The position numbers and the translations under genes were made by a program. A stretch of DNA of 64,000 nt from assembly GCF_964355755.1 (NCBI RefSeq), contig NC_092673.1:3601001-3665000 (forward strand). The letters are read 5' to 3'. Below, in pieces: positions 37,323 through 63,345 of this stretch (the stretch's first letter is position 1; the number at the start of each line of letters is the position of its first letter). A model generated the notes under the pieces. The model made no database searches. It was not told where the DNA came from and saw only the letters and a list, made by a program, of their open reading frames with translations. Origin of the DNA: Antedon mediterranea. Taxonomy: Eukaryota > Echinodermata > Crinoidea > Comatulida > Antedonidae.

Positions 37323-37442
37323 ATGTCTAGTGCGGGTACGACGAAAGAGTTTATTGTAGGAGGAAAATACCGTTTAGTTCGAAAAATTGGAAGTGGGTCG
37401 TTCGGCGACATCTACTTGGGCATCAATATCACAAATGGAGAG
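37323..37442 (+). CDS. CSNK1A1: casein kinase I alpha, exon 1
   Basis: Residues 1-40 of a 335-aa CK1-alpha (human short isoform: 337 aa). The kinase phosphorylates Ser/Thr in primed or acidic contexts; known substrates include beta-catenin Ser45 in the Wnt destruction complex and Ci/Gli in Hedgehog signalling. This exon carries the glycine-rich ATP loop [10 protein letters not shown] (22-31) and the family string [12 protein letters not shown]. The ATG is the first after an in-frame TAG at 37305. It ends GGAGAG|GTAGGC, phase 0. With seven sequential exons in consistent phase and no lesion, the gene appears intact; it spans 15.2 kb of coding plus introns. Confidence 0.97.
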
Positions 37443-38005
37443 GTAGGCCTAGGCTAGTGTGTTTTCGCCTGTGTGTTTCTATTCTGTACTAGCCTAGCCT
37501 TAATGGTAGGCCAACAATTAGGAGTTTGTTCAATGACTGGAGTTAGTATGAGAGTGTGTTGTCAGGCCGAAATGTTGTGAAATTTAAGGCCTAGAGTATG
37601 AGTGAGGCTTAACGTTTCTCCTAGATAAATTATAATCTTAATATTTAATAATAATAGAATGAATGTTGTTTTCTTTTCTCTATATAGGCCTAGGCCTATA
37701 ATGTTAGTTAGGCCTCCTGGCTTAGCCTTGAGAGGCCTGACTGTAGACTAAGAAAACCTAGGCCTAGCCTAGTAGTAGTAGTAGGTCTTTTAACTCACTG
37801 AGTCGATATTAAAGTTTGATACATACATGATATTTGTAGTTTATTTCAATGATAATGTATAAAAAGGGGAATTTTTCTACGACATCGTATAAGTATTCCA
37901 GTTTATTCCAGGTAAAGATTTGAATCAAATTCTGAATACTACAAATTCAATCATCAGAATGTGTAATGAATAAATAATATTTCATAATTTTGAATTTGTT
38001 TTCAG
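37443..38005 (+). other. CK1-alpha intron 1
   Basis: GT-AG, phase 0, 563 nt. Rich in AGGCCT/TAGGCCTA palindromes around 37680-37770. No repeat family recognised. Confidence 0.8.
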
Positions 38006-38112
38006 GAAATTGCAGTAAAGTTAGAATCACATAAAGCAAGACACCCACAATTATTATATGAAAGTAAACTATATAAAATATTACAAGGAGGACCAGGAAT
38101 CCCACATATAAG
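38006..38112 (+). CDS. CSNK1A1: casein kinase I alpha, exon 2
   Basis: Residues 41-75 plus two bases: [20 protein letters not shown] then [16 protein letters not shown]. It contains the ATP-anchoring lysine K45 (EIAVKLE) and the alpha-C glutamate (LLYES). Acceptor TTTTCAG|GAA, donor ATAAG|GTACAG in phase 2; the split Arg codon is completed by the first base of exon 3. Confidence 0.97.
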
Positions 38113-41100
38113 GTACAGTGTAACAAAATTCTAACTCAAATATGATTTATTTCATTCCATATGTTATTTTAAACTTTATAATTATAGTGCACGTACAAAC
38201 TGATGGTGATGAAGAAGAATCTTTGACGAGGTATGGAGTTGAAAAACTGGTCCGCTACAGTACCCGTTGGTCAATCATGAACTATGACATCTTGTCTTCA
38301 AAGTAATATGCTAAGATTAGGGTAGAGAATGGATGTAAATATTGGATAATAATAATAAGACCATATTTTCTTTTGGGTTATTACATGTAAATGGATTTTT
38401 TCTTTTTTTTCTGATTAGGAAGTACAATAAATAAGAAAAGTTTTGCTTTCTCCTCTAAATAAACCACTTAAATATTGTTTTTTTTTTTATAACAAATACT
38501 TTTCTTCATGTCATGCTCTGTTCCTTACAGTGAAGAACAATTATTATGATTATTTATTTTTTGCCAAGAAGTCGCACTTCTCTGTCAAAACATTTTCTGG
38601 CAAAACATATCAAATTTATTTTTAGCCCATTCCAAGCAAAAACATGTTTTGTCATACCATGAAGGTCATAATATTATGCAACTATTATTAATTTAATAAT
38701 GGTAGTCATAATGGTGGCTATCAATTCTTTAATACTTTTTTTTTGCAGTTAGAAACTATGTTTTTTTGCTTATTTTGGGTTAATTAATGTTAATTTATTG
38801 TTGATGATGCAAACAGAATATGAATCCTTATAATTCATGTGTATTGAGTGAAACGTACCAGAATTCCATAGATAGTTAGTTTATTGTAACATCACAATAG
38901 TAGGTCTGTCTTGCCGTTAATAGAATCAATTGGCCATATTTCTTCTGTCTCATTAATATAATATTATATAACACACATATTGGTAGATTCTTTTCATTTG
39001 ATTGGACTATTGTTGGTTTTTTCGATCTAAATTCTAATCATATGAGCGTTATATTAGCAACATAGTTGTGCAAAAAAACATATCGCAGAGGAGAAATAGG
39101 TGTAAAGGTTGGAATTTAATCATCAGTTTATTATTTAACAAGATGTGTTATTAATTAATACAACACTGAATTAATTTCTACAGTTTAATTTGGAAAAAAT
39201 ATTACTCAAATTTTAAAGCCCACGTGAATATTAACTCTGCTTGCACAAATTTTATATACAGAACATTTCCAGCTGTAACAAGCATTGATTTGCATAATGT
39301 TCTCTCTGCCAATAGCAATTAGTGTAGCATATCTTAGGTCAGAGGTCAATTAGAGTTCACACTAACATTTTAGTTGTTTTTAGGAATACTGACACAGTTG
39401 GGTGGATTGTGTTGTTGAATAAGCCTAATCAAAATGCAATGATTGTTGTTAACTGCATTGAACCACACCCAATGTTTGTAATATATACAATAATTTGATT
39501 TTAGATTGTGTGTGATTAATGGGAAATAATAATTGTTTGTTTTAAAAAATATATTGAATTAATTATACTTTTGCCAACTCATCAAATGGCTGCAATGCTA
39601 GCTGCGTGTCATGATGTTCTTAATCATGTAAACTGTATTTATTATAATGCTGTATTTATTATTCACTAAATTATCTTATTTTGAATAACAAATTAGCCAT
39701 CGTGAGTTGAGAGAAATAAGGTAGAAAAGTGTCGGTTTAGAGGAAGTCTTCTTGCTGAATGTCTCATAGTATTAATGACATTTTCAATGCTCTTAGAGGG
39801 TTGATGAAAAATCAAGGCAGTCACATGCACCTGATTCTTATTCCATTATTATGTGTCCAGTAACAGTGTTACATTATGTATCACATGTGTTACTGTACAT
39901 GTTTAGGTTCGGCATTTCTCACTATTAGTATTACAGAATTTACAATATAGACAGTGGGAGCTATACGGTACAGTGTTTAGTTTGAAACTAAGCCAAGTGC
40001 AAGGCCAAAGAACGTACAACATTTTGAATTGATAAAATGTCCAATGTATGTCTGTATCTGTAAGAAAGATTATGACGTATATAATGCACCAACACTGTGT
40101 GTCAAATATAATCACTTTGTTTATACTCTTGTGTTCTGTATAGGAAGTGCTGGACATGTTCCAACAGAAGATGCTATTGAACTCATCTTCATTGTGTGCT
40201 CGTCAAACATTTTATTATTTTGCTTATTAGTTCTGTTCAAGGTATTCTTTGAGTCATGGAGGTTTAAAGATTTGTTTGTTTCATGTCCATAGCTCAGTAC
40301 AAGAACAAGGTTTTCGATATGTACAGCCTATGTATTAAACTATTGTACACTTTAATAATAGTGTAGGTACTACTTGTTGCTAACATTTTTAAAATAATTT
40401 GTTTACTGCATAAATTACCTCAATTTTCTCAACTCAGAAGTACTCATAATACATAGTCCTGTAAATTATTTTCTTCCCAAAATATTGGTCTAAAAAAGCA
40501 ACAAAAAAAATGTTTTGTATTTTTAACATGATTTTGGTAGTTTTTTAGTAGAACATATCATAGTGAATTATACATGATATCGCTTGCGCTATGGTAGTAT
40601 TAGTGTAACACTAGATATCCGTTAATTGATATGTTCTGTTATTGTATGAAAATTATTTTTTTCCACACTACCTACTGTAATTTACCATATGTATGTTTTG
40701 GTAATATTATAGTCAATGTTATTTGGCAGAAACTAAATTCCCACTTCATTTGTCATTTTAAGACAAAAAATATAACTTGTACTTTCCAAAATTGTTACTT
40801 TTGGCTCTGTAACCAATATTCAACGTTTGTCTTTTAAAAGTTCCACTTTAGTTCACACACAAAATGGGCTTTGTTTTCTTTGTTGACTGACTTCACTTTG
40901 ACTGGTATTGCACCAGAAAACAGCAACCCCGTGTTTGTTAGATTCTGACAGACTGATGGAATAACAACAGGCTTAGTAACAAAATACTGTTGTTGAACAT
41001 CAGTGGGATCTACAGATGGTTAATTTTAGATGTGATCATAAGCCAAGTATTTTACATTTATCATCAATCTTTCAATTTCTACTTATATTGTAAATAAGCT

Positions 41101-42341
41101 GTATTAAGTACACTTTGTTGTTATCTCTTAAAATTAAAGACTACATTGTTATGTTTTTTTATCAACATAATAAAGTTAAATCTATTTTTTAAACTGTACA
41201 GTTAGTACTGTACTATCAAGTCTAGATGTCAAGTCAGTTAAACATTAAAATGTTTTGTTCATGTTCTGGTCTCAATATCTATGTTCATTAACATTTTTAG
41301 TAAACATTATTTAATTATATTTACAGTACACAAAATGTGTTTATTGACATTGCCAATAACATTAAAATCTTTTAATGCCGATAACCTTTTGGTAGCTGTG
41401 ACTGTAGAAGTCATTCGCCGTATTACTATTTAATTTTACGACTTAGGTAAAGTCCCATTTAATGCCAATACAGCACTCATCGGACTATGATAGGCATTAA
41501 TGGTATATATACAACTATCTGGCTTACCCCAGTAGGTGACTTATTGATAAAATAGGCTAATCTAGTGTGTTGCATCTGGGGGTCATTGATATATGTGTGA
41601 AGGTATGATATCACTCCACCCAGATTCACACTCTACATACTCATTGGATTCTATGCCAGAATTGAATGACTCAATTCCACGTAATACAATCAACAGTTTT
41701 AAAAATTAACATTTCCTATGTTTTATTAATGAAACCGTAATGATTCAAACAATGTTAAATTGGCCTACAGTACTTTACAGTTATAATGTAAAGAAAATAT
41801 TTTGAATAAATTTGAAATAAATTTATAATGTACAGTTCGAACCTATATTGAGGGGCTTTACAGTTAAACTTATAATGTATAGAAAATATTTTGAAAGAAA
41901 TTTGTAATGTACAGTCAAACCCATATTAAGGGGATACCTTTGAGACCAACAGAGTGTCCCCTTAATAATGGTACTGTATCACCTGAATAGTGGTTAGCCA
42001 TGTATTTTACCACGTTTGTTTGTCCCAATAATATTGTAACCCCTGAAAAGAGATCCCAAAAGAGTTGTTCTGCTGCATTTTCGATATACATTACTGTACC
42101 TGTAAAGGTCAATTTACAGACGAGCGGTAATGCTTGACCCACGTAGAATCTAAGCGGAACCGTCCACTCCGCCTTGTGTGTAAATGGTCAGAAGGAATAA
42201 CATTTTTTACCATTACCGCTTGTCTGTGTAAATTGGCCTTTTTAGCCTGTTTTATTCTAGTTAACAAGCTTATAACTTTTTGTTTTTAGTGTATATATAA
42301 ATTTGATTTTTAATGTATTTTTTTCTTCATTTTCTTTAAAG
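38113..42341 (+). other. CK1-alpha intron 2 (4.2 kb)
   Basis: AT-rich intron with one MITE-C element near its 3' end (42105-42241) and a short direct repeat around 41820-41925 (AGAAAATATTTTGAA, AATTTGTAATGTACAGT). No other exon recognised. Confidence 0.75.
42105..42241. mobile_element. MITE-C copy, 136 bp
   Basis: Terminal inverted repeats: AGGTCAATTTACAGACGAGC then GGTAATG at the left, and CATTACCGCTTGTCTGTGTA then AATTGGCCT at the right. Internal CCACGTAGAATCTAAGCGGA is shared with copies at 51195 and 52040. It lies about 100 bp upstream of exon 3. Confidence 0.75.
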
Positions 42342-42468
42342 GTGGTATGGTACGGAAAAAGAATATAATGTCTTAGTAATGGAACTGCTTGGGCCCAGTT
42401 TAGAAGATTTGTTCAACTTTTGCTCAAGAAAATTCACAATGAAAACAGTTTTGATGTTAGCTGATCAG
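42342..42468 (+). CDS. CSNK1A1: casein kinase I alpha, exon 3
   Basis: Residues 77-118, [20 protein letters not shown] then [20 protein letters not shown] then DQ. It covers strand 4, the hinge ([13 protein letters not shown]) and helix D/E of the kinase. Donor GATCAG|GTACGT, phase 0, so either copy of exon 4 can follow without a frame change. Confidence 0.97.
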
Positions 42469-44439
42469 GTACGTTTTAAAACAGCATTTACAATTATTAT
42501 AATTTAAATGAAGTAAATCATTAATACAATTCTCGAATATTAATTATATAATAGTAAGGGTGTGGTCAGGTTTCCTGTTTCGTGCCTCGCTTAGATAATT
42601 TAAATGTTCAAAAAAATAACTTAAGTGTGTACAGTGTATTAAGTGACGTCGTCCACCATGGTTTTAAACATGGCTGTAAATTGTAATCAAAATTTGAATT
42701 GCTAAATCCAAAACCTACATAAAATGATTGCATGCAAGCTGACCAAAAACAAATCAGTGGTTCGTTAGATAGCCATTGATCAATTTAAGAATGTTTATCA
42801 TTTTGCCTCTTTTATAATCTCGGCACGTTCATGAATGTTTGCTCAGTTTGAGATGAACTTTGACCTTTGTTTGATATTACGGCAATGGAATGAATAATTT
42901 ACTGATTGCATACTCAATTTTGTATTTTAAAGTTGGATAAATAAAATGTTATATTACTGTAGTTTCACTATTAATAATCATAGAAAAATACTAATGTTTA
43001 TGCTACATTGTGCTAATAGTTGACCAATAAAAATGTTTATGTCATGTACTGTATAATATTAAATTATTAATCTAATCAAGACGGAAAACTTGATGTGATT
43101 TTTTTCTTCTTTGTCAATACTAATTTAAAAAAAACAAATTAGGATGGGTGTATTCTGTTGTCAATTTACTGTACAAATTCTACCATTTGTAAGCCATTTC
43201 TGAATCGCTACAATCTAGCCTTGAATGTTGTGTGTTTTTCTTTGGCAATATACTTTTTATCCTGCTGCTTGCTGAGCATGTTATTGGTTTTATTGGGCGT
43301 TTTACGTAGCTTTTTGTGTTGTTTTTTTTGTGTACTGTTGTATAGACCATTGATCACTGTGTAACACCACCTAGTATTGTGTTGAATCTTAACACTTGAA
43401 CTGATATCAAGGTTCACTGAATCTTGCATCTGGATGGCGTTCATAGCTAGCTTGCATTATTCTGGTCGTTTGTACATAGGCGTTAAAAATACCAATGAAA
43501 TTCCTGTTTTAAGGTATTTTACAATCTAGTGTGATGATGAATTACGTTTTTGTATAAAAAAAAAATTCCAATAATACAGTAGGCCTACAGTATACACTGT
43601 ACATAGAGCCTTTCTATAAAGATATTGTTCACTGCCATTTCTTTCTTTGAATATCATTATCAAGCGATACTTTTCTATGCTTCACTGGGTACAGACTTAT
43701 AGAAATAACGTTTTTACACTTAGGGCGTACAGTATGCATGATGTAATAATAATATTATTAATTTGTCTGTCGTTGTCAACTGAAATCATTGTAATGTGTA
43801 TAATATTTAAAGAAAATATATGGATACAAAAATACCATAGAAAAATTAGATTCAGATTACGAAATACTGTATATAAATAAAAAATTATATTTGAATCTAT
43901 AATTGGACAATTTTTAAAAATTAAACAATTATGATTGTGTATATACTGTACAGATTTAAAACTACAGTAGTTAAAGACTTTATCCCTACGGTATTTTATC
44001 ACTAAAATAAATTGTAGGCCAAAAAAATCTTAAATTGAAGTTTACATTGTCTTTTCATTATGAATGCAATTACTCATATTGTGTCTTACACTACAGTAAA
44101 TATGACGTATTTATCAAGTACTGTACCTTCATTATGAATACAATAGCTTTCATTTACTACTAGTTATGATAAAACGTGCGTCTCTACTAATCTGACACCA
44201 CAGTATGTTCAACTGACCTCAGTAAAATATTTACTAATACCGTATGGAAAAGAAATCATTATCAAAAGTCACCTTTAATGTTGAATTTATATTGTTGTAA
44301 AGAGAAAGGCATTTAAATCAAAGCAAAACTGGTCATCGAGTGGGAAGTGTACAGTTAATAACTGTGGGTCTTTGTTCATTTGATATAAAATGAACATTAA
44401 ATTATAAGCCACAATTGCTCATTTTAAGGATTGATACAG

Positions 44440-44580
44440 TATTTAAAGATGTACTGTATTGTCCCTCAAAAACATGAACAAAATGAAGATTATTTTTAAA
44501 AAAAGACTTAAATAGGCCATTTTACAGTTTCAATAAAGTTAATCATTAAAGTAGAGAAAAAAATGTTTTCACTTATAAAA
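44440..44580 (+). mobile_element. MITE-D dispersed repeat copy
   Basis: GATGTACTGTATTGTCCCTC, AAAAACATGAACAAAATGAAG, AGACTTAAATAGGCCATTTT, TTCAATAAAGTTAATCATT. The same motif order occurs at 27730 (+) and, reversed, at 11236. Confidence 0.5.
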
Positions 44581-44996
44581 AGACTAAAGAAAACAAAAGT
44601 AACCAACAAAAAATGTCTTTTTTATACGATTGAAAACAATTGCAAAATAGTTTCCCATGTTCTCATCTTGCGTTCCAAATCAATTTCATGCAATATAAAA
44701 AGCCAGGCTTTGTTTGTATTTGTTTATTTGTTGCTATTTAACCTTTTAGAGGAAGTAAAATATAATGATGGTAGTACAGTGCTTTAGTATAATAATATGT
44801 TAGGACACCAGTTGAATACTATAAAATCCAATGCTTATTATTGTATTAACAGTACTGTATATCCAATACAATACAAGTGGAAACAAAGGTAATCCATTTA
44901 GGAAAGTTCAGGATTACACTGTTTGTTTAAAGGGACCTTGGACCATGCTTTCAATTTCACTTAATATTAACCATGATACTATAGTAGTATCACTAT

Positions 44997-45823
44997 GGCC
45001 CCGTTTCTGCTGCCAAAAATATACCGTATATATACGGTATATTTTTTGGCAGCAGAAATGGGTCTCATAAAAAATATACCGTATATATATGCGGTATATA
45101 TACCGCATAAATATCCCCATCGTTTGTGGATATTATACGGTATATTCCAAAAGATACCGTATATTTCGTACCCCGTTTCTGCTGCACTCAAAATATACCG
45201 TATATGTGACCCGGCCCATGACACGAGGTCAAAAACTAACAGAGCGTGACGCGTTTGTTTGATATTTCTGCTGCATTGACACACACGTGTATAAGCAAGC
45301 AACAGATCAAAATATCACTGTGGACTGAAGAAATAACTATTTTTGCAATTCAATTGTGGGGAGAAGCGAAGGTTGGGAGGAGACTGCATGGTAACAGAAG
45401 AGATACCGAGATTTACAAAAGTATCTCAAACAAAATAAAAGCAGAATTTGTGGTAGACTTAATAACGTCAAAGTTATCGGCAAATGCCGTCGTCTTCTTT
45501 GCATAAATCTAGTCAATGCCCATTCTACATTTCTAGATTGTTTGTGCGGTGTAAATTCGTTGCCACTTCTGCTCATTAGATTTAAAATAGAAAGCAATGC
45601 TACGACGTTTTGAGAAACCATCATTGTTTTGTTTTTGTCATGTAATCTCACTACACGAGACTCTAGGTCAATCCATACTTCCGTCTCACGAAATGCATTT
45701 TGGGTAATGAAAGCCAACTTTTTTACAGCCCACCCACGAAGTATGTGCAGCGGAAACGGTACACGAATTCCATATAGGGTATATTTATACGGTATATTTG
45801 GGATTGGCAGCAGAAACAGGGCC
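44997..45823 (+). mobile_element. PIF/Harbinger-like element relic, 827 bp, nonautonomous
   Basis: Ends GGCCCCGTTTCTGCTGCCAA and (reversed) GGCCCTGTTTCTGCTGCCAA match 19 of 20, and both are followed by ATATACCGTATA. TAT flanks each side (44994-44996 and 45824-45826), a possible 3-bp target duplication. Inside, 45300-45440 encodes on + a Myb/SANT-like segment: WTEEITIFAIQLWGE, GNRRDTEIYKSISNKIKAE. This matches the DNA-binding second ORF of Harbinger elements as I know it; no transposase is present. The left end is complex: a second inverted terminal copy at about 45049 makes a 65-bp hairpin, and a third terminal copy lies at 45172. Confidence 0.65.
45300..45506 (+). pseudogene. fragment of a Myb/SANT-like transposon protein
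   Basis: An open frame inside the Harbinger-like element includes KISLWTEEITIFAIQLWGEA, a short gap, then RRLHGNRRDTEIYKSISNKI and KAE before non-homologous residues and a stop at 45506. The spaced tryptophans and the W-x-W pattern (SLWTEE ... QLWGE) are typical of Myb/SANT-like DNA-binding domains linked to Harbinger transposons. Only one domain-sized piece remains and no start codon context fits, so I call it a relic. Confidence 0.5.
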
Positions 45824-47016
45824 TATTAAATATTCAAATAATATTAATAATACAGTGCTTAAAATTTATATTTTTTCATCACTAATACTTATTGATAAGT
45901 AGCAATGATGATAGATGATTTGCTTGATAATTCCGAGGAAGGTTAATATTGTCCACAGTTTCCTGTGTTTATAAAATGATCAATGATCTGTAGTGGACTT
46001 GACTAATATTATGTTATTATTAAGAGCATAATATGTCACTGTACAAGTAGTACCTTTTAGCCCTTAAACCAACATTCTAGGAACTAATATTATTATCAGA
46101 CTATACACTTTTGACACCAATGATTTTATGAATGCAGAATTTTTGCTATACTGTACAGTGCTACTACTATACTTTTGAACTCATATGTCACGGATGAGTG
46201 AATTTGTCAGGTCACTACAGTGTCAATGAAATACTTCCTTAATATTAATGTAATTATAATTGCATGTGCACATACAGTATCTGTGTTTTTGCTGCTACTG
46301 TATAATGTACAGTATGATTAATGGGTTTGTATAAGAAAAGTATGTACAATGCAAATAGCCTTAATAAATCTTTGAAAATTGAATCAGTCTTTTAATTAAT
46401 TGAAAATAGCAATATACATTTAATTTTTAGATGTCAAAATCTGATTTACAGTAGGGTATACTGTACAATCAACTTGATACTAGAAAAATACTAATTGTAT
46501 AGTGACCTCAAACATAAAAACACCTACGTACATTTGTCATTTTACATTCTGTGTACAGTTACACTTATCGTTGAGTCTTTTTGATGAAGGTATAAAATAA
46601 TTATTTTATACATCCATGCACAGTTAAAACATTTTTCTACTTTTGAGTTATTAATTATTGAAGGTTCAAATACAGAAATTGTTGTGATGATAATTACTGT
46701 AGGTAATGTTCTCGAAGAATAATTAGATAAAACTTGCATCTTGTGTGTACAGTACTGTATGTTTTGTGAACAAATTGCCACCTGGACATTTAAAGTTAAT
46801 ATTGCAACCTGGACATTTTAGTTAAAATTCAATATTTGTAAAATTTTTTATTATGTAACACCTAAAAATCATCATGCATGTTTGGGTTATGAGAGAAACT
46901 ATGCATTTATTATTATTTACTCTATGATTGTGCTATGTAGTATTTTGCGCATTTTGTTGTAAGCCTTTTTCCCTTTGATTTATATGTATCCCGCTTCTTT
47001 TCCCTCTGCCGTATAG

Positions 47017-47115
47017 ATGATAGGCCGTGTTGAGTATGTACACAGCAAGAATTTCATCCACCGTGATATCAAACCAGACAACTTCTTAATGGGCATTGGC
47101 AGACATTGTAATAAG
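47017..47115 (+). CDS. CSNK1A1: casein kinase I alpha, alternative exon 4a
   Basis: Residues 119-151 in one isoform: [20 protein letters not shown] then [13 protein letters not shown]. It carries the catalytic loop HRDIKPDN (Asp135 catalytic base, Lys137, Asn140). Flanked by GTATAG|ATG and AATAAG|GTAAAA; 99 nt, phase 0 at both ends. From my knowledge of the human protein this copy differs at about three positions and is the closer to the ancestral sequence. An equal-length second copy follows 58 nt later; using both would duplicate the catalytic loop, so one per transcript is expected. Confidence 0.95.
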
Positions 47116-47173
47116 GTAAAACTCAATTGTATTTGTCTTTTTCTTTTTCGTTCCTCGACTGCACTCGCTGTAG
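47116..47173 (+). other. 58-nt intron between the alternative exons 4a and 4b
   Basis: Begins GTAAAACTC and ends GCTGTAG. A pyrimidine tract (TTTGTCTTTTTCTTTTTCGT) fills the middle, so a branch point for exon 4b must lie within about 20 nt of the exon 4a donor. That distance is likely too short for a spliceosome to assemble on this intron. Retaining it (58 nt, not a multiple of three) shifts exon 4b out of frame and reaches a stop at 47238. Confidence 0.85.
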
Positions 47174-47272
47174 ATGATCAGTCGTACCGAGTACATCCAC
47201 AACAAGCACTTCATTCACCGGGATGTGAAACCGGATAATTTTCTAATGGGTATCGGACGACACTGTAACCAG
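47174..47272 (+). CDS. CSNK1A1: casein kinase I alpha, alternative exon 4b
   Basis: A second, diverged copy of exon 4: [20 protein letters not shown] then [13 protein letters not shown]. Same length (99 nt), same phases, intact splice sites (GCTGTAG|ATG, AACCAG|GTAACA) and an intact HRDxKPDN loop. Against exon 4a I count 28 nucleotide differences of 99 but only seven amino-acid changes (G3S, V5T, V8I, S10N, N12H, I18V, K33Q). Most changes are synonymous, so both copies have been under purifying selection. This argues for a functional alternative exon rather than a decaying duplicate. Confidence 0.93.
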
Positions 47273-47675
47273 GTAACATTTATACAACTACCGTACTGAC
47301 AAGAGAATAAGCCTTGAAAATAACATGTTTGTTTGGAAGAATTATCCATACAGTATGAACCCAACTGGGTGTACACTGTAAAACACAGAGAGGTCATGTT
47401 GTTTTGGAAATTATTCCTTATTTGGGGGTGAGGGGGACGGGAATGGGAGAAGTCTCCTGTAAATTTAATTAGTATAGGCATATACTTCTGTCTGTACGGT
47501 ATGATTTAGACTGCATATTTTATGGATAAGTATTGTGGTTTGTTTTTTTTTGTCATCAGTTGTATCGTACTTTATTTTATTATGTAATGGGATTTAATGT
47601 TTCTTTTGTTTCAACTTGATTGTTCGTTCTATCTTCCGTTTTTCTTCTAGCTCATACAGTACTTTATAATTCTTA

Positions 47676-47854
47676 AGCCCTGTCTACAGTGCACTATCAA
47701 ACTAGTTTGACAATAAAAGTGATGTGGCCACATATGGTTGGTGTTGATATATTGTATGCTTAAATATTGTAGTGATATGACATCATCATGTCCATATATG
47801 GTATGGGCACATCATATTTTTTGACACATAAAGTTTGATAGTGTAGACAGAGCT
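47676..47854 (+). mobile_element. MITE-A copy, complete
   Basis: Left end AGCCCTGTCTACAGTGCAC then TATCAAACTAGTTTGAC, preceded by TTA. Internal motifs TTGTAGTGATATG and GACATCATCATGTCCATATATGG. Right end TTTGATAGTGTAGACAGAGC, followed by TATAA. Confidence 0.85.
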
Positions 47855-49480
47855 ATAACTAGTTCATACAATATACTGTTGTATATTGTAAAAAATCATC
47901 CTCCTTTCTTTAATTTTTTTAAACAGTCTAAGTTAGCGATTAAAACTATTCAATATTGACATCTAAAGACATTGTTTAAATGTCATTACATATCATTTTA
48001 TTTTAATGCTAAACAATGTAGAAATATTACAAACTGTCCTGAGGCTTTTAAAGTGCAAGCACAAAGCAGTATTTTGTAAAATTCACGAATAATACATCAC
48101 ATTGATTCAAAATACTGTGAGCCTATGTGTTGAATTAACACAGACTGTATGTGTGACATCAACATGAGAAAGTGCACTTTGTTGGAGGTCAAAGGTCTAC
48201 ATTGTATTTACCAAATATGTTGATGTTCATTTTGTTATTAACTGAACACTGAACTACTGTAGACTTCAGGTGGATTTGTGAATTATTTTATACATGTTTG
48301 GCGATGATACTGATACTTAAAAACCCATCCAAAACCAGAAGACTTTTTATTGTTTATAAATACATTTTAAAATTGGTCTTAACAACAAAGACATTCTTAG
48401 TAGGATTTAAAATAGCCACTAAGTCTGTAATCTGCTCAGTACAGTGTATTTAATGAGCATTGTTTGGCAGTGTAAACAGGGGCTTATTCAATTTTTGTGC
48501 TATGGCAATATTTACTTATTACAATAAAAAAACTTGATATTGTTTTTGTGCCTCCTTTTTAATACTGGCAGCTGTTCCTTATTACCTTACTGAAATTGTC
48601 GTGTGAATTTCTTTTTTTCCCCTTTCAATCTTTATTAATATAACAGGGATTAGTATTACTGAAGGAATTAAAGGGTGGGCCTATGGGAAATTTATAAAAA
48701 GGAGGTCGTCATGATGTAAACAAAATAAATATTGTTTTTTTGTTGTTGAGTACAGTACATGGAACTGTAAAATTGTTACAGTAATTTGATTTTAATACTG
48801 CGCCGATTTACTTGATTATAAAGCTAATACTGTTCCTCTAAAGTACAATTTAATATTACTTTTATTTACAGTATATTAATTTAATATCATTCAAATTCTG
48901 GCCTTGGAAATACTACACTGACTTTAAGGAACTAGTATATTTATGTTAATTAATGTTCATTATTTAAAATATATGAGTTGTTCTCTCATGCATTTTATTT
49001 ATAATTATGCATAAAAAATTACTCAATGTGATGTCTTTGTGATGTGATCTAGATGTACAGTATTTCTTTATATTGTTGTAATACTGTAATAGTAGTAGTA
49101 TTTGTATTAGTATAGTTATATCGTAAATATTTTTAAAGCATGCTGTATTAACTTGTAACATGGGTTTATATTTAGACACCTAACAGCACATACTGTAATA
49201 CTAAATACTGTAGGCCTATAAACACTACCAACAATAAAAAAAAAAATGTATCTCAAAGGCATACTTGCACAGCATACAATTGGGCTTTACGATTGATTGT
49301 AAGGTATAATACTGTGCCTCAATCAACTAGATACTAATGTACAGGACTACCAGTAGATCTTCACCAGGCCTACAACATTACATACCTTTATCACAAGACC
49401 AACAAGCCAATGGCAGATCTTGTGTAAAGACACTGCAACAATCGTTCTCAATAAGCTGGATCCTATTCACCGTGCCATCC

Positions 49481-49678
49481 CAGGCCTTGTCTTTTAAGGC
49501 GAGCGGGTGCGATCACTTACCCAACACACTCCTAAACAGCCATTGAGTAGGGCGATTTACAACACGCTTAAATTTGGTAAACTTCTATACACCAAAATAC
49601 AAACAGCACACCTACAGCATACCTGAATGTATTAAGGCAATTTGTAGCACACCTATAATTTTCAAAAGACAAGGCCTG
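49481..49678 (-). mobile_element. MITE-B copy, 198 bp
   Basis: Terminal inverted repeats CAGGCCTTGTCTTTT (left) and AAAAGACAAGGCCTG (right). The interior is the reverse complement of the copy at 51732-51922, at roughly 85 percent identity by eye (shared AAGTTTACCAAATTTAAGCG, GTGTGTTGTAAATCG-like strings). It lies about 80 nt upstream of exon 5. No coding capacity. Confidence 0.85.
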
Positions 49679-49761
49679 TCATCCATCTCTCTGTGCAGTA
49701 GTACTGCTAGTGTTGTGATACAGAAATAGTAATAAACATTCTTTTTAATTCAATGTTTCAG

Positions 49762-49901
49762 TTGTACATCATCGATTTTGGGTTGGCAAAGAAGTACCGA
49801 GATAGCAGGACAAGACAACATATTACATACAGAGAAGACAAAAATCTTACAGGTACAGCAAGATATGCAAGTATCAATGCACATCTGGGCATTGAGCAAA
49901 G
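49762..49901 (+). CDS. CSNK1A1: casein kinase I alpha, exon 5
   Basis: Residues 152-197 plus two bases: [46 protein letters not shown]. It holds the magnesium-binding DFG (156-158) and the CK1-specific activation segment in which the usual APE is replaced by the SIN motif ([11 protein letters not shown]). Acceptor GTTTCAG|TTG, donor CAAAG|GTAGGT, phase 2. Confidence 0.97.
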
Positions 49902-49932
49902 GTAGGTTATCACCATGGATGATGCAGGCCTT

Positions 49933-50113
49933 AAGCTCTGTCTACACTATCAAACTTCATGTGACAACAAAATGTGATATGCCCATATATAGTAATGATG
50001 ATGCCATACCACTACCATTTGGACATATCACTACCATATTTGAGCACATCACTACCATATTTGAGCACATCACAATTTTTGTCACATAAAGTTTGATAGT
50101 GTAGACAGGGTTA
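49933..50113 (+). mobile_element. MITE-A copy, complete
   Basis: AGCTCTGTCTACACTATCAA then ACTTCATGTGACAACAAAA at the left; internal ATCACTACCATATTTG repeated; right end GTTTGATAGTGTAGACAGGG followed by TTAA. It starts only 31 nt after the exon 5 donor. Confidence 0.9.
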
Positions 50114-50838
50114 ACATACCTATTTAATTAAGCATCTTAACACAAAATCTCGCCACCTACTTTTCATCTCATAACTTGCTGATTGTCCTGATACCAGAAT
50201 TTGGTCTTAACAAAATCATACGATACATTACACTCAAAGACTTGCTAAAAACTTTGTTTATGTACAGCACATGTCTGGGAATGTTTGTCCTATCCACAAT
50301 GGATTAGGACCTTGTCTTATGACCCTATGAAAAACAATAATTTCCACCTATTAAATAACTGACCATCTACTATACCAAACAGGGCTAAAATTATCTATCG
50401 TGGGATGATTTGGTTTTAAAGCATTTTATAATATTTATGTATAATTTTAAAATAAAATTTAATATATTTAATCTGTAAAATACATTTCATATTTCCATGT
50501 TACTTCCAAACCAGAAAAATAGTTTCATATTTGTAATTCAAAAATGAATGACATCAATGTTTATGATTTATAAAAATGAGATTTCATATCCGGTTATATT
50601 AAAATTGTAGATTATTTTAAATCAAGGTTTTCTTATAAGCTTTATGCCTTTGGGACTCGAAACGGAAGTTACATCCACAGTATAGGCCATTAAACCCTGT
50701 GTGTAATTTATAATGAATTAATATAATATGTAGAATTATTGGTTATGGATTACATCAAAGTGTCAAGGTGCATTGTTGAATGAAAGCAATTTAGTACATA
50801 CGTCACATTACTGTACTGATACACTAATTCACCCATTA

Positions 50839-50993
50839 TCCTTGTCTACACTATCAAACTAGTTTTTTTTAAACAAAGTGTAATGTGCCCAAATATGGTA
50901 GTGATATGCCCAAATATGATGTCATCATATGCCCTTATATGGGCATATCACGTTTTTGTTGTCACATAAAATTTGATAGTGTAGACAGAGCTT
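50839..50993 (+). mobile_element. MITE-A copy, complete, TA flanks
   Basis: TA then TCCTTGTCTACACTATCAAA at the left; CCCAAATATGGTAGTGATATG internal; right end TTTGATAGTGTAGACAGAGC then TT and TA. Both arms retain the long inverted repeat. Confidence 0.9.
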
Positions 50994-51194
50994 TAGTGTT
51001 GTCATTATTTTATAGCGATAGTATTATTATATCTGAGCCTGAAATCTAGACTGGATTTATAATTAAAATCCAAATTTCCTGTTTATTATATAGTTGTCAT
51101 TATTGGTAATAATTTACTATTGAATTCATTGATTTTCCTGAAAGACTACTTGGTCTACTACTACTCCTCATCTACTGTTATTATCTCCCACTCC

Positions 51195-51381
51195 AAATGC
51201 GCATTTACACAGATGAGCGGTAACGGTAAGCAGAAAACATACATTAAAATCTATGTTTGAACATTTACACCAACGCAGAGCGGACAGGTAAACTCTGTCA
51301 AGATAGATATAGATTCTACGTGGGACATTAAGCACACAGTTTTCCGCTTACTGTTACCGCTTGTCTGTGTACATTGGCTTT
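51195..51381. mobile_element. MITE-C copy, about 187 bp
   Basis: Left CATTTACACAGATGAGCGGT then AACGGTAAGC; right GCTTACTGTTACCGCTTGTC then TGTGTACATTGGC. It contains the AGATTCTACGTGG internal string shared with the 42105 copy. Confidence 0.75.
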
Positions 51382-51490
51382 AAGGAGTCATCTCTTCACC
51401 CACTATTTACTATTTCCCACCTACCTTTTGTAGATAAATATCTCTTGTATGTCAAGCATCTATTCTTTAATATTTTATTATTTCTTATAG

Positions 51491-51644
51491 TCGTCGAGAT
51501 GACATGGAATCGTTGGGCTATGTGCTGATGTATTTCAACCGTACTAGCCTACCGTGGCAAGGGTTGAAAGCAGCTACCAAAAAACAAAAATATGAGAAGA
51601 TCAGTGAAAAAAAGATGTCTACACCAGTAGAGGTTCTCTGCAAG
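51491..51644 (+). CDS. CSNK1A1: casein kinase I alpha, exon 6
   Basis: Residues 198-249: [52 protein letters not shown]. It includes the helix F aspartate ([12 protein letters not shown]), the LPWQGLKA string and the CK1 nuclear-localisation-like TKKQKYEKI. Acceptor TCTTATAG|TCG, donor TGCAAG|GTAGTG, phase 0. Identical to the human sequence as I know it over almost its whole length. Confidence 0.97.
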
Positions 51645-51731
51645 GTAGTGTATCTTTTTGCTTTATAATTAGCATTCCGGCATCTGACACTTCTCCCGCT
51701 ATGTTGAAATCTCTTACAGCATAGTATATAT

Positions 51732-51922
51732 CAGGCCTTGTCTTTTGAAAATTATAAGTGCGCTACAAATTGCACTCCTCAATGCATTCAGGGGTGCTGT
51801 TTGTATTTTGGTGTGTAGAAGTTTACCAAATTTAAGCGTGTTGTAAATCGCACTCATCACGGGCAGTTTAGGAGTGTGTTAGGTAAGTGATCGCACTCAC
51901 TCGCCTTAAAAGTCAAGGCCTG
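51732..51922 (+). mobile_element. MITE-B copy, 191 bp
   Basis: Ends CAGGCCTTGTCTTTTG and AAAAGTCAAGGCCTG. Inverted relative to the copy at 49481-49678. AT-rich flanks with GTATATAT on the left and ATGTATAT on the right could be a worn 8-bp target duplication. Confidence 0.85.
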
Positions 51923-52039
51923 ATGTATATTGCAGCGTGTCATCACATCATAGAACAAAATTATGTCATGGTAAAAAATTCTCACCCCTCCAACTTTTTT
52001 GATGTACTTCAAATATACCATAATTTAATAACACAAAAC

Positions 52040-52149
52040 ATGGAGTGGACAGGCGGTTTTCGCTCCATAAATAGATTCAGATTGTACGTGGTACAAGCTA
52101 TGTGGTTTTCTGCTTACTGTTACCACTCGTCTGTGTAAATTGCCCTTAA
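52040..52149. mobile_element. MITE-C copy, left end missing
   Basis: GGAGTGGACAGGCGGTTTTC, AGATTGTACGTGG and the right terminus GTTACCACTCGTCTGTGTAA, ATTGCCCTT. Confidence 0.65.
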
Positions 52150-52222
52150 AGCATTATATTTTCATTTTTTATGTAACTAAATACATAATATTCTTATGGT
52201 GTTTTTTGTGTCTCCATTCCAG

Positions 52223-52483
52223 GGTTATCCAGCTGAGTTTGCCATGTATTTGAACTACTGCCGAGGTCTTCGTTTTGAGGAAGCGCCAGATTATATGTAT
52301 TTGCGTCAACTTTTCCGAATTCTCTTCCGCACCCTTAACCACCAGTATGATTTCACCTTTGATTGGACGCTACTTAAACAGAAAGCCGCTCAACAAGTTA
52401 ACACAAGTCAAGGATCAAGCGCAGTGGCAGGTGGAGCCCTGCAGGCTAAACTGTCCGAAAGCAAGGGTAAAAGCAAACGCTGA
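52223..52483 (+). CDS. CSNK1A1: casein kinase I alpha, exon 7 (C-terminus)
   Basis: Residues 250-335 and stop. [40 protein letters not shown] and [18 protein letters not shown] complete the kinase C-lobe and match CK1-alpha almost exactly. The tail after residue 303 ([13 protein letters not shown] ... SESKGKSKR) is diverged, as usual for this family, but keeps a basic end like the human KSKSNMKGF tail. Acceptor CCATTCCAG|GGT. The UTR downstream holds several AATAAA signals. Confidence 0.97.
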
Positions 52484-54012: not shown

Positions 54013-57000
54013 TTTTAAATGGCCATTATTCGACTCTGCGCATGTTTATTATGCTATAGTAACCATTTATGTCAAAAAATAAAAGGGTCGAAAATCGGCC
54101 ATTTTTCGGAAATTTTCCTGTACTATAGTACAGGGTTTTTTTCAGAAAAATGGCAAATTTTCGACCTTTTTATTTTTCGATAAAACTGGTTACTATAGCA
54201 CAATTGACATGCGCAGAACCCATTATTCGTCTCTGCGCATGTTTATTATGCAATAGTAACCATTTATGTCAACAAATAAAAGGGTTGAAAATCGGCCATT
54301 TTTCGGAAATTTTCCTGTACTATAGTACAGGAATTTTTTCTAAAAAATTGCCAATTTTCGACCTTTTTATTTTTCGATAAAACTGGTTACTATAGTACAA
54401 TTAACATGCGCAGAACCCATTATTCGGCTCTGCGCAGGTTTATTATGCTATAGTAACCATTTATGTCAAAAGTGGTTACTATAGCACAATTGACATGCAC
54501 AGAACCCATTATTCGTCTCTGCGCATGTTTATTATGCAATAGTAACCATTTATGTCAAAAAATAAAAGGGTCGAAAATCGGCAATTTTTCGGAAATTTTC
54601 CTGTACTATAGTAGGCCTACAGGGATTTTTTCAAAAAAATTGCCAATTTTCGACCTTTTTATTTTACGATAAAACTGGTTACTGTAGCACAATTAATATG
54701 CGCAGAACCCATTATTCGGCTCTGCGCATGTTTATTATGCTATAGTAACCATTTATGTCAAAAGTGGTTACTATAGCATAATTGACATGCGCACAACCCT
54801 ATATTCGTCTCTGCGCAGGTTTATTATGCAATAGTAACCATTTATGTCAAAAAATAAAAGGGTCGAAAATCGGCCATTTTCCGGAAATTTTCCTGTACTA
54901 TAGTACAGGGATTTTTTCACAAAAATGGCAAATTTTCAACCTTTTTATTTTTCGATAAAACTGGTTACTATAGCACAATTGACATGCGCACAACCCATTA
55001 TTCGTCTCTGCGCATGTTTATTATGCTATAGTAACCATTTATGTCAAAAGTGGTTACTATAGCATAATTGACATGCGCACAACCCATTATTCGTCTCTGC
55101 GCATGTTTATTATGCAATAGTAACCATTTATGTCAAAAAATAAAAGGGTCGAAAATCGGCCATTTTTCGGAAATTTTCCTGTACTATAGTACAGGGATTT
55201 TTTTCAGAAAAATGGCAAATTTTCGACATTTTTATTCGATAAAACTGGTTACTATAGTACAATTAACATGCGCAGAACTCATTATTCGGCTCTGCGCATG
55301 CTTATTATGCTATAGTAACCATTTATGTCAAAAGTGGTTACTATAGCACAATTGATATGCGCACAACCCATTATTCGTCTCTGTGCATGTTTATTATGCA
55401 ATAGTAACCATTTATGTCAAAAAATAAAAGGGTCGAAAATCGGCCATTTTTCGGAGATTTTCCTGTACTATAGTAAAGGGATTTTTTCAGAAAAATGGCC
55501 AATTTTCGACCTTTTTATTTTTCGATAAAACTGGTTACTATAGCACAATTGACATGCGCACAACCCATTATTCGTCTCTGCGCATGTTTATTATGCAATA
55601 GTAACCATTTATGTCAAAAAATAAAAGGGTCGAAAATCGGTCATTTTTCGGAAATTTTCCTGTACTATAGTACAGGGATTTTTTCAGAAAAATGGCCAAT
55701 TTTCGACCTTTTTATTTTTCGATAAAACTGGTTACTATAGCACAATTGACATGCGCAGAACCCATTATTCGTCTCTGCGCATGTTTATTATGCAATAGTA
55801 ACCATTTATGTCAACAAATAAAAGGGTTGAAAATCGGCCATTTTTTGGAAATTTTCCTGTACTATAGTACAGGAATTTTTTCAAAAAAATTGCCAATTTT
55901 CGACCTTTTTATTTTTCGATATAACTGGTTACTATAGTACAATTAACATGCGCAGAACCCATTATTTGGCTCTGCGCATGTTTATTATGCTATAGTAACC
56001 ATTTATGTCAAAAGTGGTTACTATAGCACAATTGACATGCGCAGAACCCATTATTCGTCTCTGCGCATGTTTATTATGCAATAGTAACCATTTATGTCAA
56101 AAAATAAAAGGGTCGAAAATCGGCCATTTTTCGGAAATTTTCCTGTACTATAGTACAGGGATTTTTTCAAAAAAATTGCCAATTTTCGACCTTTTTATTT
56201 TACGATAAAACTGGTTACTGTAGCACAATTAATATGCGCAGAACCCATTATTCGGCTCTGCGCATGTTTATTATGCTATAGTAACCATTTATGTCAAAAG
56301 TGGTTACTATAGCATAATTGACATGCGCACAACCCTATATTCGTCTCTGCGCATGTTTATTATGCAATAGTAACCATTTATGTCAAAAAATAAAAGGGTC
56401 GAAAATCGGCCATTTTCCGGAAATTTTCCTGTACTATAGTACAGGGATTTTTTCAGAAAAATGGCAAATTTTCGACCTTTTTATTTTTCGATAAAACTGG
56501 TTACTATAGCACAATTGACATGCGCAGAACCCATTATTCGTCTCTGCGCATGTTTATTATGCAATAGTAACCATTTATGTCAACAAATAAAAGGGTCGAA
56601 AATCGGCCATTTTTCGGAAATTTTCCTGTACTATAGTACAGGGATTTTTTCAAAAAAATTGCCAATTTCCAACCTTTTTATTCGATAAAACTGGTTACTA
56701 TAGTACAATTAACATGCGCAGAACCCATTATTCGGCTCTGCGCATGCTTATTATGCTATAGTAACCATTTATGTCAAAAGTGGTTACTATAGCACAATTG
56801 ATATGCGCACAACCCATTATTCGTCTCTGCGCATGTTTATTATGCAATAGTAACCATTTAAGTCAAAAAATAAAAGGGTCGAAAATCGGCCATTTTTCGG
56901 AGATTTTCCTGTACTATAGTACAGGGATTTTTTCAGAAAAATGGCCAATTTTCGACCTTTTTATTTTTCGATAAAACTGGTTACTATAGCACAATTGACA

Positions 57001-57190
57001 TGCGCACAACCCATTATTCGTCTCTGCGCATGTTTATTATGCAATAGTAACCATTTATGTCAAAAAATAAAAGGGTCGAAAATCGGCCATTTTTCGCAAA
57101 TTTTCCTATACTATAGTACAGGAATTTTTTCACAAAAAAATTGCCAATTTTCGACCTTTTTATTTTTAGATAAAACTGGTTACTATAGCC
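54013..57190. repeat. 3.1-kb array of two long hairpin modules
   Basis: Two palindromic modules repeat head to tail. H1 (about 74 nt) pairs GGTTACTATAGCACAATTGA + CATGCGCAGA with its near-complement around a 14-nt loop. H2 pairs a 47-nt arm (GGTCGAAAATCGGCCATTTT ... CCTGTAC) with its near-complement around a 4-nt TATA loop. I count 13 H2 modules, near 54120, 54318, 54604, 54896, 55182, 55466, 55664, 55860, 56147, 56429, 56627, 56909 and 57110. Between consecutive H2 copies lie one H1 (spacing about 197 bp) or two (about 285 bp). Short open frames beginning MANFRPF or MSKVVTIAQ are by-products of the repeat. Confidence 0.9.
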
Positions 57191-57388
57191 ATTTTTTTTT
57201 TTTTAATCTAAAAAATTTCGACTTTTTAACATTTAATTATTACGCAATAATATGGCTATATATTGCTTTGTATCGTCTTATAGTAACCAGTTTTGTCGAA
57301 AAATAAAAAGGTCCTATCGTATAAAAAATACGTACTTTTTAAAATACTATTATTATTGCTAGATATTATATTGCGTTACAATTATCGT

Positions 57389-58700
57389 ACCTCAAAATAA
57401 TGTGCATAATCACATAATGTGGTATGTGCATGTTACCTCAATATAATGTGCATAATCACATAATGTGGTATGTGCATGTTACCTCAATATAATGTGCATA
57501 ATCACATAATGTGGTGTGTGCATGTTACCTCAATATAATGTGCATAATCACATAATGTGGTGTGTGCATGTTACCTCAATATAATGTGCATAATCACATA
57601 ATGTGGTGTGTGCATGTTACCTCAATATAATGTACATAATCACATAATGTGGTGTGTGCATGTTACCTCAATATAATGTGCATAATCACATAATGTGGTG
57701 TGTGCATGTTACCTCAATATAATGTGCATAATCACATAATGTGGTGTGTGCATGTTATTTCAATATAATGTGCATAATCACATAATGTGGTATGTGCATG
57801 TTACCTCAATATAATGTGCATAATCACATAATGTGGCATGTGCATGTTACCTCAATACATGTGCATAATCACATAATGTGGTGTGTGCATGTTACCTCAA
57901 TACATGTGCATAATCACATAATGTGGTATGTGCATGTTACCTCAATACATGTGCATAATCACATAATGTGGTGTGTGCATGTTACCTCAATACATGTGCA
58001 TAATCACATAATGTGGTGTGTGCATGTCACCTCAATATAATGTGCATAATCACATAATGTGGTGTGTGCATGTTACCTCAATACATGTGCACAATCAGAT
58101 AATGTGGTATGTGCATGTTACCTCAATATAATGTGCATAATCACATAATGTGGTATGTGCATGTTACCTCAATATAATGTGCATAATCACATAATGTGGT
58201 ATGTGCATGTTACCTCAATATAATGTGCATAATCACATAATGTGGCATGTGCATGTTACCTCAATATAATGTGCATAATCACATAATGTGGTATGTGCAT
58301 GTTACCTCAATATAATGTGCATAATCACATAATGTGGTATGTGCATGTTACCTCAATATAATGTGCATAATCACATAATGTGGCATGTGCATGTTACCTC
58401 AATATAATGTGCATAATCACATAATGTGGTGTGTGCATGTTACCTCAATACATGTGCATAATCACATAATGTGGTGTGTGCATGTTACCTCAATATAATG
58501 TGCATAATCACATAATGTGGTGTGTGCATGGTACCTCAATATAATGTGCATAATCACATAATGTGGTATGTGCATGTTACCTCAATATAGTGTGCATAAT
58601 CATATAATGTGGTATGTGCATATTACCTCAATATAATGTGCATAATCACATAATGTGGTGTGTGCATGTTACCTCAATATAATGTGCACAAACATGTGCA
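57389..58700. repeat. 46-bp satellite, about 28 units
   Basis: Consensus ATAATGTGCATAATCACATA, ATGTGGTATGTGCATGTTAC, CTCAAT. Some units start ACATGTGC and are 45 bp, which keeps a local frame open as a 15-residue repeat (57792-58040). Variants GGTATG, GGTGTG and GGCATG are intermixed. Confidence 0.95.
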
Positions 58701-59650: not shown

Positions 59651-59777
59651 GCAAGTAGGCAAGGAAATTTTTGACGAAGAGATCTTAAAACAATGTTAGG
59701 CCCTAAATGCTGAGTACTAAACAATATCTAGTTTGTATGAAATATTATACTACTGTATTTACTATGGCATAATAGGT

Positions 59778-60215
59778 ATGGATGCACAGACCGTTAAATT
59801 ATCTGACGTCATTGCAGAACTGGGCCTCGAGGGACACGTAGAAGGGGGTTATTTTAAAGAAACATACCACTCGGAAAACAGCTCAGCAATATATTTTCTC
59901 TTATCAAAAGATAGTAGACATAAATGGCATCGCATTATTGGTAGAGACGAAATATGGCACTTTTACGCCGGAGGTCCCCTTGAGGTCTCCGTAGCAAATC
60001 CCGACGGTGTATTACTGGGAAGACACGTTCTTGGTCCAAATTTAACGCAGGGTCATAAAGTTCAGTTGATGATTCCAGCCAATCATTGGCAGGTTGCAAG
60101 ATGTCTTGACGGCTGTGATTGGACGTTAGTTGGTTGTACCGTTAGTCCTCCTTTCGAGTATGAACACCTCGAGTTAGCAGGACCAGATTTTAAAGTATCA
60201 GAAGGTTTGTGTTAA
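59778..60215 (+). CDS. DUF985 / cupin_5 family protein
   Basis: A 145-aa protein with one coding exon, starting MDAQTVKLSDVIAELGLEGH. It has the whole cupin_5 (DUF985) pattern: HVEGGYFKETYHS (20-32), AIYFLLSKDSRHKWHRIIGR (about 36-55), DEIWHFYAGGPLEV (56-69), DGVLLG, GHKVQLMIPANHWQVARC and WTLVGCTVSPPFEYEHLEL. The His/Glu positions in HVEGG, RDEIWHFY and NHW are those of the double-stranded beta-helix pocket. The family is widespread in bacteria, fungi and some animals; its substrate is not established, so no reaction is assigned. ATG 59778 is the first in frame. Possible poly(A) signal AATAAA at 60280. Confidence 0.85.
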   Translation: MDAQTVKLSDVIAELGLEGHVEGGYFKETYHSENSSAIYFLLSKDSRHKWHRIIGRDEIWHFYAGGPLEVSVANPDGVLLGRHVLGPNLTQGHKVQLMIPANHWQVARCLDGCDWTLVGCTVSPPFEYEHLELAGPDFKVSEGLC

Positions 60216-61702: not shown

Positions 61703-63170
61703 TATGCATGCACATATAGTATACTCTGTGCACATATAGTATACTCTGTGCACATATAGTATACTCTATGCACATATAGTATACTCTGTGCAGATATAGT
61801 ATACTCTATGCACATATAGTATACTCTGTGCACATATAGTATACTCTGTGCACATATAGTATACTCTGTGCACATATAGTATACTCTGTGCACATATAGT
61901 AAACTCTGTGCACATATAGTATACTCTATGCACATATAGTATACTCTATGCACATATAGTATACTCTATGCACATATAGTATACTCTATGCACATATAGT
62001 ATACTCTATGCACATATAGTATACTCTGTGCACATATAGTATACTCTGTGCACATATAGTATACTCTGTGCACATATAGTATACTCTGTGCACATATAGT
62101 ATACTCTATGCACATATAGTATACTCTATGCACATATAGTATACTCTATGCACATATAGTATACTCTGTGCACATATAGTATACTCTGTGCACATATAGT
62201 ATACTCTGTGCACATATAGTATACTCTGTGCACATATAGTATACTCTATGTACATATAGTATACTCTATGCACATATAGTATACTCTATGCACATATAGT
62301 ATACTCTATGCACATATAGTATACTCTATGCACATATAGTATACTCTATGCACATATAGTATACTCTATGCACATATAGTATACTCTATGCACATATAGT
62401 ATACTCTGTGCACATATAGTATACTCTGTGCACATATAGTATACTCTATGCACATATAGTATACTCTATGCACATATAGTATACTCTATGCACATATAGT
62501 ATACTCTGTGCACATATAGTATACTCTGTGCACATATAGTATACTCTATGCACATATAGTATACTCTGTGCACATATAGTATACTCTGTGCACATATAGT
62601 ATACTCTATGCACATATAGTATACTCTATGCACATATAGTATACTCTATGCACATATAGTATACTCTATGCACATATAGTATACTCTATGCACATATAGT
62701 ATACTCTATGCACATATAGTATACTCTATGCACATATAGTATACTCTGTGCACATATAGTAAACTCTATGCACATATAGTATACTCTATGCACATATAGT
62801 ATACTCTGTGCACATATAGTATACTCTGTGCACATATAGTATACTCTATGCACATATAGTATACTCTGTGCACATATAGTAAACTCTGTGCACATATAGT
62901 ATACTCTATGCACATATAGTATACTCTGTGCACATATAGTATACTCTGTGCACATATAGTATACTCTATGCACATATAGTATACTCGATGCACATATAGT
63001 ATACTCTGTGCACATATAGTATACTCTATGCACATATAGTAAACTCTATGCACATATAGTATACTCTGTGCACATATAGTATACTCTGTGCACATATAGT
63101 ATACTCGATGCACATATAGTATACTCTATGCACATATAGTGTACTCAATGCACATATAGTATACACCATG
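61703..63170. repeat. 20-bp satellite, about 73 units
   Basis: CACATATAGTATACTCTRTG repeated with exact 20-bp phase, with no insertion or deletion from about 61720 to 63150. The R position is A or G in runs (CTATG versus CTGTG); rare variants are AAACTCT, CAGATAT, TACATAT and ACTCGATG. Degenerate, longer-spaced versions continue to about 63340. Long open frames on the - strand are artefacts of the repeat. Confidence 0.97.
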
Positions 63171-63345
63171 CACACAAAATGTGTGCATATAGTATATTGT
63201 AACCACGCACATTTACTTGTGTGAGTGCACTATATGTATGCAAATTTACTTGTGTGCATAGTATACTCAATGCACACAGAATTGAATGTGTGCATATAGT
63301 ATATTGTAACCATGTACATTTACGTGTGTGCAATATAGTATACTA
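63171..63345. repeat. degenerate border of the 20-bp satellite, with an internal duplication
   Basis: GTGTGCATATAGTATATTGT then AACCA[CT]G[CT]ACATTTAC occurs twice (about 63181 and 63291), separated by about 110 bp. Confidence 0.7.

Follow-up and report, generated by a model that had tools for sequence, protein, structure and literature searches.

In MAPK14, mutually exclusive exons in the kinase domain change activity and substrate specificity, and MAPK9 and MAPK10 by appearance also have exclusive kinase-domain exons (the passages on these kinases in PMC1431701). For FYN, the exclusive exons are described as encoding the linker plus an N-terminal portion of the kinase domain, with a change in target binding and phosphorylation (PMC9741552, in part). 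Here we analyze a CK1-alpha gene of the crinoid Antedon mediterranea, situated in a stretch of 64,000 nucleotides (the window, C4:3601001-3665000), in which the exon coding for the catalytic loop is present as two adjacent versions, 4a and 4b. Judged from the sequence, these exons very probably go back to an ancient tandem duplication and have been retained as a mutually exclusive pair. As in MAPK14 and FYN, the exclusive exons would lie within the kinase catalytic domain, but in FYN the swap concerns the linker and kinase-domain N-terminal part, and in CK1-alpha it would concern the HRD catalytic loop itself. The exclusive blocks of the MAPKs lie after the activation segment. In the mollusc Aplysia, the catalytic subunit of PKA, an AGC kinase, has an alternative cassette spanning the catalytic loop, a case that our literature search did not show. 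Exclusive kinase-domain exons are already known, and what would be unusual here is the catalytic loop as the swapped block, together with a comparable pair in a related CK1 gene.

Among animal kinases CK1-alpha is strongly conserved; it is a gatekeeper of beta-catenin degradation and central in the Wnt pathway. Splicing of vertebrate CK1-alpha varies the N, L, and S segments, and the L segment contains a nuclear localization signal (as outlined in PMC11255964). Both cases are alternative splicing of CK1-alpha, but the vertebrate segments are present or absent, whereas here a homologous exon would be replaced. The first-pass annotation of this DNA had considered the arrangement undescribed for CK1-alpha, and this holds within the open-access literature searched: titles and the starts of abstracts of the papers listed describe no exclusive exons in CK1, and both exons may already be annotated. 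Neither CSNK1 nor casein kinase is mentioned in the main text of PMC5740500 or of PMC9741552.

The CK1-alpha gene of the window

A complete CK1-alpha gene occupies positions 37323-52483 of the plus strand, and all of its introns are of the GT-AG type. Its parts are as follows (window coordinates).

37323..37442, plus strand: exon 1, with the start codon and the glycine loop; donor GAG/gtaggc
38006..38112, plus strand: exon 2
42342..42468, plus strand: exon 3, ending in phase 0 and preceding 4a and 4b; donor CAG/gtacgt
47017..47115, plus strand: exon 4a, a version of the catalytic loop, 99 nt, phase 0; acceptor ...ccgtatag, donor AAG/gtaaaa
47116..47173, plus strand: spacer from the 4a donor to the 4b acceptor, 58 nt, with a pyrimidine tract
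47174..47272, plus strand: exon 4b, b version of the catalytic loop, 99 nt, phase 0; acceptor ...cgctgtag, donor CAG/gtaaca
49762..49901, plus strand: exon 5, with DFG and the activation segment
51491..51644, plus strand: exon 6
52223..52483, plus strand: exon 7, stop codon included

The open reading frame codes for 335 residues with 4a and likewise with 4b. When the b isoform is compared with the Protein Data Bank (PDB), the top matches are CK1-alpha chains (5fqd, E 1.7e-199, 664.7 bits); the alpha chains score 639.7-664.7 bits, and CK1-delta reaches at most 533.5 bits. The Pfam Pkinase domain is recognized with 99.5 bits in the a isoform and 97.2 bits in the b isoform. With alpha as the best match over the other CK1 isoforms and the motif GIGRHCN present in exon 4, the initial assignment of the gene to CK1-alpha is confirmed. 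The two adjacent phase 0 exons of 99 nt around HRDxKPDN, with intact GT-AG splice sites, were also found where they had been placed.

Divergence of exons 4a and 4b

The two exons differ at 28 of 99 nucleotides (8, 2, and 18 at the first, second, and third codon position) and at 7 of 33 residues, exact counts that agree with the approximate ones given in the first-pass annotation. In human numbering the residue differences are at positions 122, 124, 127, 129, 131, 137, and 152. They had been described as lying just before the catalytic loop. Position 137 is the x of HRDxK, so one change (I/V) is inside HRDxKPDN. The K/Q difference, thought to be the last residue before DFG, ends the exon instead, with four residues preceding the D (K-LYII-DFG). 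We take the vertebrate L segment to enter at the exon 4/5 junction, adjoining this K/Q residue.

Exon 4a is identical to residues 120-152 of human CK1-alpha (chain 7wtt_a) at 30 of 33 positions, and exon 4b is identical at 27. Exon 4b retains HRD, the K, and the N. At positions 127 and 137 it has I and V, the state of human CK1-epsilon; epsilon has GLGKKGN where 4b has the GIGRHCN of human CK1-alpha. The ungapped alignment of 4a with 4b has a relative BLOSUM score of 160/184 (87%).

The surroundings of the exons are dissimilar, with 45% identity over the 58 nt upstream, where both are pyrimidine-rich, and 28% over the 58 nt downstream. Because the flanking introns are unlike, the pair is neither a recent copy nor an assembly stutter. 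The genome, with 354,431,138 bases in 18 contigs, was searched with 4a, which gave 62 matches in the stretches searched. The best five are CK1 exons, namely 4a itself, C4:1960897-1960995 (88%), 4b (79%), and exons of a gene on C1 (74%) and a gene on C6 (69%). The C1 gene is of the delta/epsilon type from its sequence, and the one on C6 resembles gamma. The other 57 of the 62 matches are at most 60% identical, and no processed copy recording an mRNA junction is apparent among them. That the pair is an assembly artefact or a collapsed second gene is barely conceivable. Beyond the use of a single assembly nothing points to it; the 28 differences in 99 nt and the unlike flanks disfavor it, and besides one paralogue there is no further CK1-alpha-like exon 4 among the 62 matches.

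The CK1-alpha paralogue (L001/L004) is located on the minus strand of C4 at about 1.954-1.972 Mb, about 1.7 Mb away. Its intron positions match those of the CK1-alpha gene where they could be placed, and its seven exons are open. The paralogue exon 4 has the b state at three of the seven variable positions (S, N, and Q at exon positions 3, 10, and 33, where the Q stands for the K of 4a) and the a state at the other four. At the nucleotide level it is closer to 4a (19 differences) than to 4b (29 differences). The paralogue is an open kinase gene and carries S, N, and Q, which suggests that these b states can work. An ungapped scan of the paralogue DNA with a threshold of 22% of the self score did not find a second exon 4.

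The residues that 4b has in common with other genes, I127 and V137 with CK1-delta/epsilon and S, N, and Q with the paralogue, would be expected if 4b had come from another CK1 gene by conversion or insertion and not from a duplication of 4a in place. Over 87 compared nucleotides, however, 4b differs from delta by 30, from the paralogue by 27, and from 4a by 26. There is thus no close donor of 4b, and the retention of GIGRHCN instead of the delta/epsilon motif also speaks against such an origin, which we regard as very unlikely. Gene conversion from the delta gene in particular was considered and is unsupported by the nucleotide distances.

The number of residue differences between 4a and 4b is far from that produced by chance. 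When 28 random substitutions were introduced into 4a in 20,000 trials, a mean of 18.3 residues changed and 57% of the trials contained a stop codon; not one of the 20,000 trials had seven or fewer residue changes. A Nei-Gojobori comparison of the two exons gives 19.5 synonymous differences over 18.2 sites, which is saturated, and 8.5 non-synonymous differences over 80.8 sites (10.5%). Saturated synonymous divergence combined with this low non-synonymous divergence indicates that purifying selection acted on both copies through the greater part of their history. The earlier claim that selection conserved both copies is upheld by this dN/dS-type comparison. When the six other exons are compared where they align, the gene and its paralogue differ at 138.25 of 161.2 synonymous sites (0.86) and 59.75 of 618.8 non-synonymous sites (0.097). 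The divergence of the exon pair is like that between gene and paralogue, so the exon duplication is old, of the order of the CK1-alpha gene duplication, and saturation prevents ordering the two events.

Splice signals and probable mutually exclusive use

The donors of 4a and 4b each match the consensus at 7 of 9 positions, and the five remaining donors in the gene match at 6-8. The 58-nt spacer between the exons has a single AG, at its end, and its retention would lead to a stop codon. All eight candidate branch-point adenines in the spacer are 3-47 nt from the 4a donor. Three of these, A10, A11, and A16, are upstream of the main pyrimidine tract, show some consensus, and lie 9-15 nt from the donor. 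Farther from the donor are A43 (42 nt) and A48 (47 nt), which leave 15 and 10 nt to the end of the acceptor.

Alpha-tropomyosin is the classic case of sterically constrained exclusive exons. A distance of less than 50 nt between donor and branch point is taken as potential steric interference in the relevant part of PMC5740500, where 57 human cases (9%) are of this class. All eight candidate adenines of the spacer fall below the same limit. The exons described here thereby resemble the sterically constrained ones of that study as cited, whereas gene and lineage differ, and here the assignment is made from sequence alone.

The spacer is also shorter than all of the 44 introns estimated for three families, the minimum of which is 90 nt, a length that was also read directly from the sequence. 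The 14 introns that were placed exactly in CK1 genes are all at least 241 nt long, and the other two tandem-exon spacers seen are 84 nt each. The 44 estimates were drawn from 51 of 56, 20 of 140, and 9 of 80 rows of three match lists. The sets of 20 and 9 were chosen by eye as neighbors with continuous profile positions, other neighboring pairs being left out. Pairs with a profile jump or an overlap of more than 12 positions were dropped, and the tandem exons of a myosin gene, whose matches are 39 nt apart at their edges and whose intron was read as 84 nt, were kept out of the estimates as a pair analyzed in its own right.

A 58-nt spacer with branch-point adenines no more than 47 nt from the 4a donor suggests that the joining of 4a to 4b is probably blocked sterically, which would make the splicing mutually exclusive. 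The branch point of 4b would have to be one that is 47 nt or less from the 4a donor, and use of the adenines that precede the pyrimidine tract would set U2 nearly on top of U1 at that donor. Splicing of 4a to 4b would then fail, and the choice would be determined by whichever site is engaged first. Exon 3 would join either 4a or 4b, each of which would then join exon 5, and the outcome would be two 335-residue kinases that differ at seven residues. Both isoforms are probably active, as the catalytic residues are present in both exons, and we infer that they differ in properties such as substrate preference or turnover.

If 4a and 4b were instead spliced in together, the product would be a protein of 368 residues that contains the catalytic-loop block twice. 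Double inclusion leaves the frame open, but it is highly improbable, because the spacer is below the whole range of estimated introns and has scant room for a donor plus a branch point. A duplicated catalytic loop would, moreover, break the kinase fold.

The exclusive-exon criteria of WebScipio, as given in PMC3228551, comprise a length within 20 amino acids, compatible splicing and frame, and a relative score of at least 15%. Exons 4a and 4b are 99 and 99 nt long, both have GT-AG sites and phase 0 without a stop codon, and their relative score is 87%. According to the same account (PMC3228551), such features are shared by 90 of the 16,180 non-exclusive exons on the X chromosome of the fly.

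Several observations weigh against mutually exclusive use of the pair. The branch-point positions are candidates, assessed with no more than a short consensus, and the 44 intron lengths are mostly estimated from the edges of neighboring matches. Introns of around 58 nt are spliced in insects. Pyrimidines are scarcer in the final 20 nt upstream of 4b than in those upstream of 4a (11 versus 14 of 17). The frame stays open with both exons (1107 nt) or with neither (909 nt); it therefore gives no protection, and exclusivity would most likely arise from crowding, that is, from competition between U1 and U2. The paralogue with its single exon 4 argues that the pair is not general to the CK1-alpha genes here. 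Finally, the selection measure covers the whole history of the exons and may be compatible with a recent loss of 4b use.

Exon 4b would in that last case be a formerly used exon, recently out of use and now unspliced. In line with this, 4b is further from human CK1-alpha than 4a is (6 versus 3 of 33 residues), and a single exon 4 seems to be enough for the paralogue. We nevertheless consider it unlikely: 4b has an open frame, an intact acceptor and donor, and the catalytic residues, and the pattern of saturated synonymous but low non-synonymous divergence speaks against a disused exon. As to the overall interpretation in the first-pass annotation, the identity of the gene, the intact homologous exons, the purifying selection, and a layout favoring exclusive use all stand, and the picture is complicated by the paralogue and by a second exon pair in the delta/epsilon gene.

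A selected pair of mutually exclusive catalytic-loop exons would mark seven positions (human 122-152) at which CK1-alpha tolerates, and perhaps uses, change. The 4a/4b pair would in this way be a natural swap experiment on CK1 specificity.

A tandem exon pair in the CK1-delta/epsilon gene

The CK1-delta/epsilon gene on C1 (L002) contains two tandem exons of 149 nt, at 5980-6128 and 6213-6361 of that locus, separated by a spacer of 84 nt. Both encode a C-lobe block that corresponds to positions 247-295 of CK1-delta chain 4tw9_A. They differ at 41 of 149 nucleotides and 10 of 49 residues, with third codon positions dominant (10, 5, and 25). The length of 149 nt is not divisible by three, so double inclusion or skipping of these exons shifts the frame.

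This parallel pair suggests a lineage that diversifies CK1 through splicing. There is about an even chance that the lineage gained exclusive exons in two CK1 genes at different places of the kinase domain, in the catalytic loop with 99-nt exons kept apart by crowding and in the C-lobe with 149-nt exons kept apart by the frame. If so, splicing of the catalytic domain would tune CK1 in Wnt, Hedgehog, and clock signaling, beside gene copies and tails.

Other tandem exons and features of the window

In a survey of Pkinase matches, inspection by eye revealed no second tandem homologous pair among the 140 matches listed (127 of 892 candidates scored; the CK1 exons are absent from this list). Two sets of neighboring matches with overlapping profile ranges, C9:4498890/4499304 and C10:2636212/2636587, were rejected, as their members have no mutual similarity when read.

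Myosins are an established family with exclusive exons, sea urchins and the acorn worm included (PMC3912159, in the portion cited). A myosin head gene (L008, C1:19.16 Mb) has tandem homologous exons, putatively at 7047-7148 and 7233-7322 of the locus, with a spacer of 84 nt; as read they code for 34 and 30 residues, and their starts are provisional. On C3, between 19.6 and 25.1 Mb, one myosin-head exon (profile about 342-408) is matched at least 19 times over about 5.5 Mb, a count that is a lower bound with 65 of 334 candidates scored. These matches possibly reflect a large myosin expansion.

A scan of the window against Rfam gave no family, and a tRNA scan gave no tRNA. The window contains two further open frames and several satellite-like arrays 3' of the CK1-alpha gene.

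3641-4195, plus strand: open frame without a Pfam match, presumably similar to the N-terminal region of an Nkx6 homeobox protein
59721-60215, plus strand: open frame encoding a Cupin_5 (DUF985) domain, E 6.5e-38
54023-57189, 57388-58688, and 61708-63174: satellite-like arrays, with periods of 197/286, 46, and 20 bp
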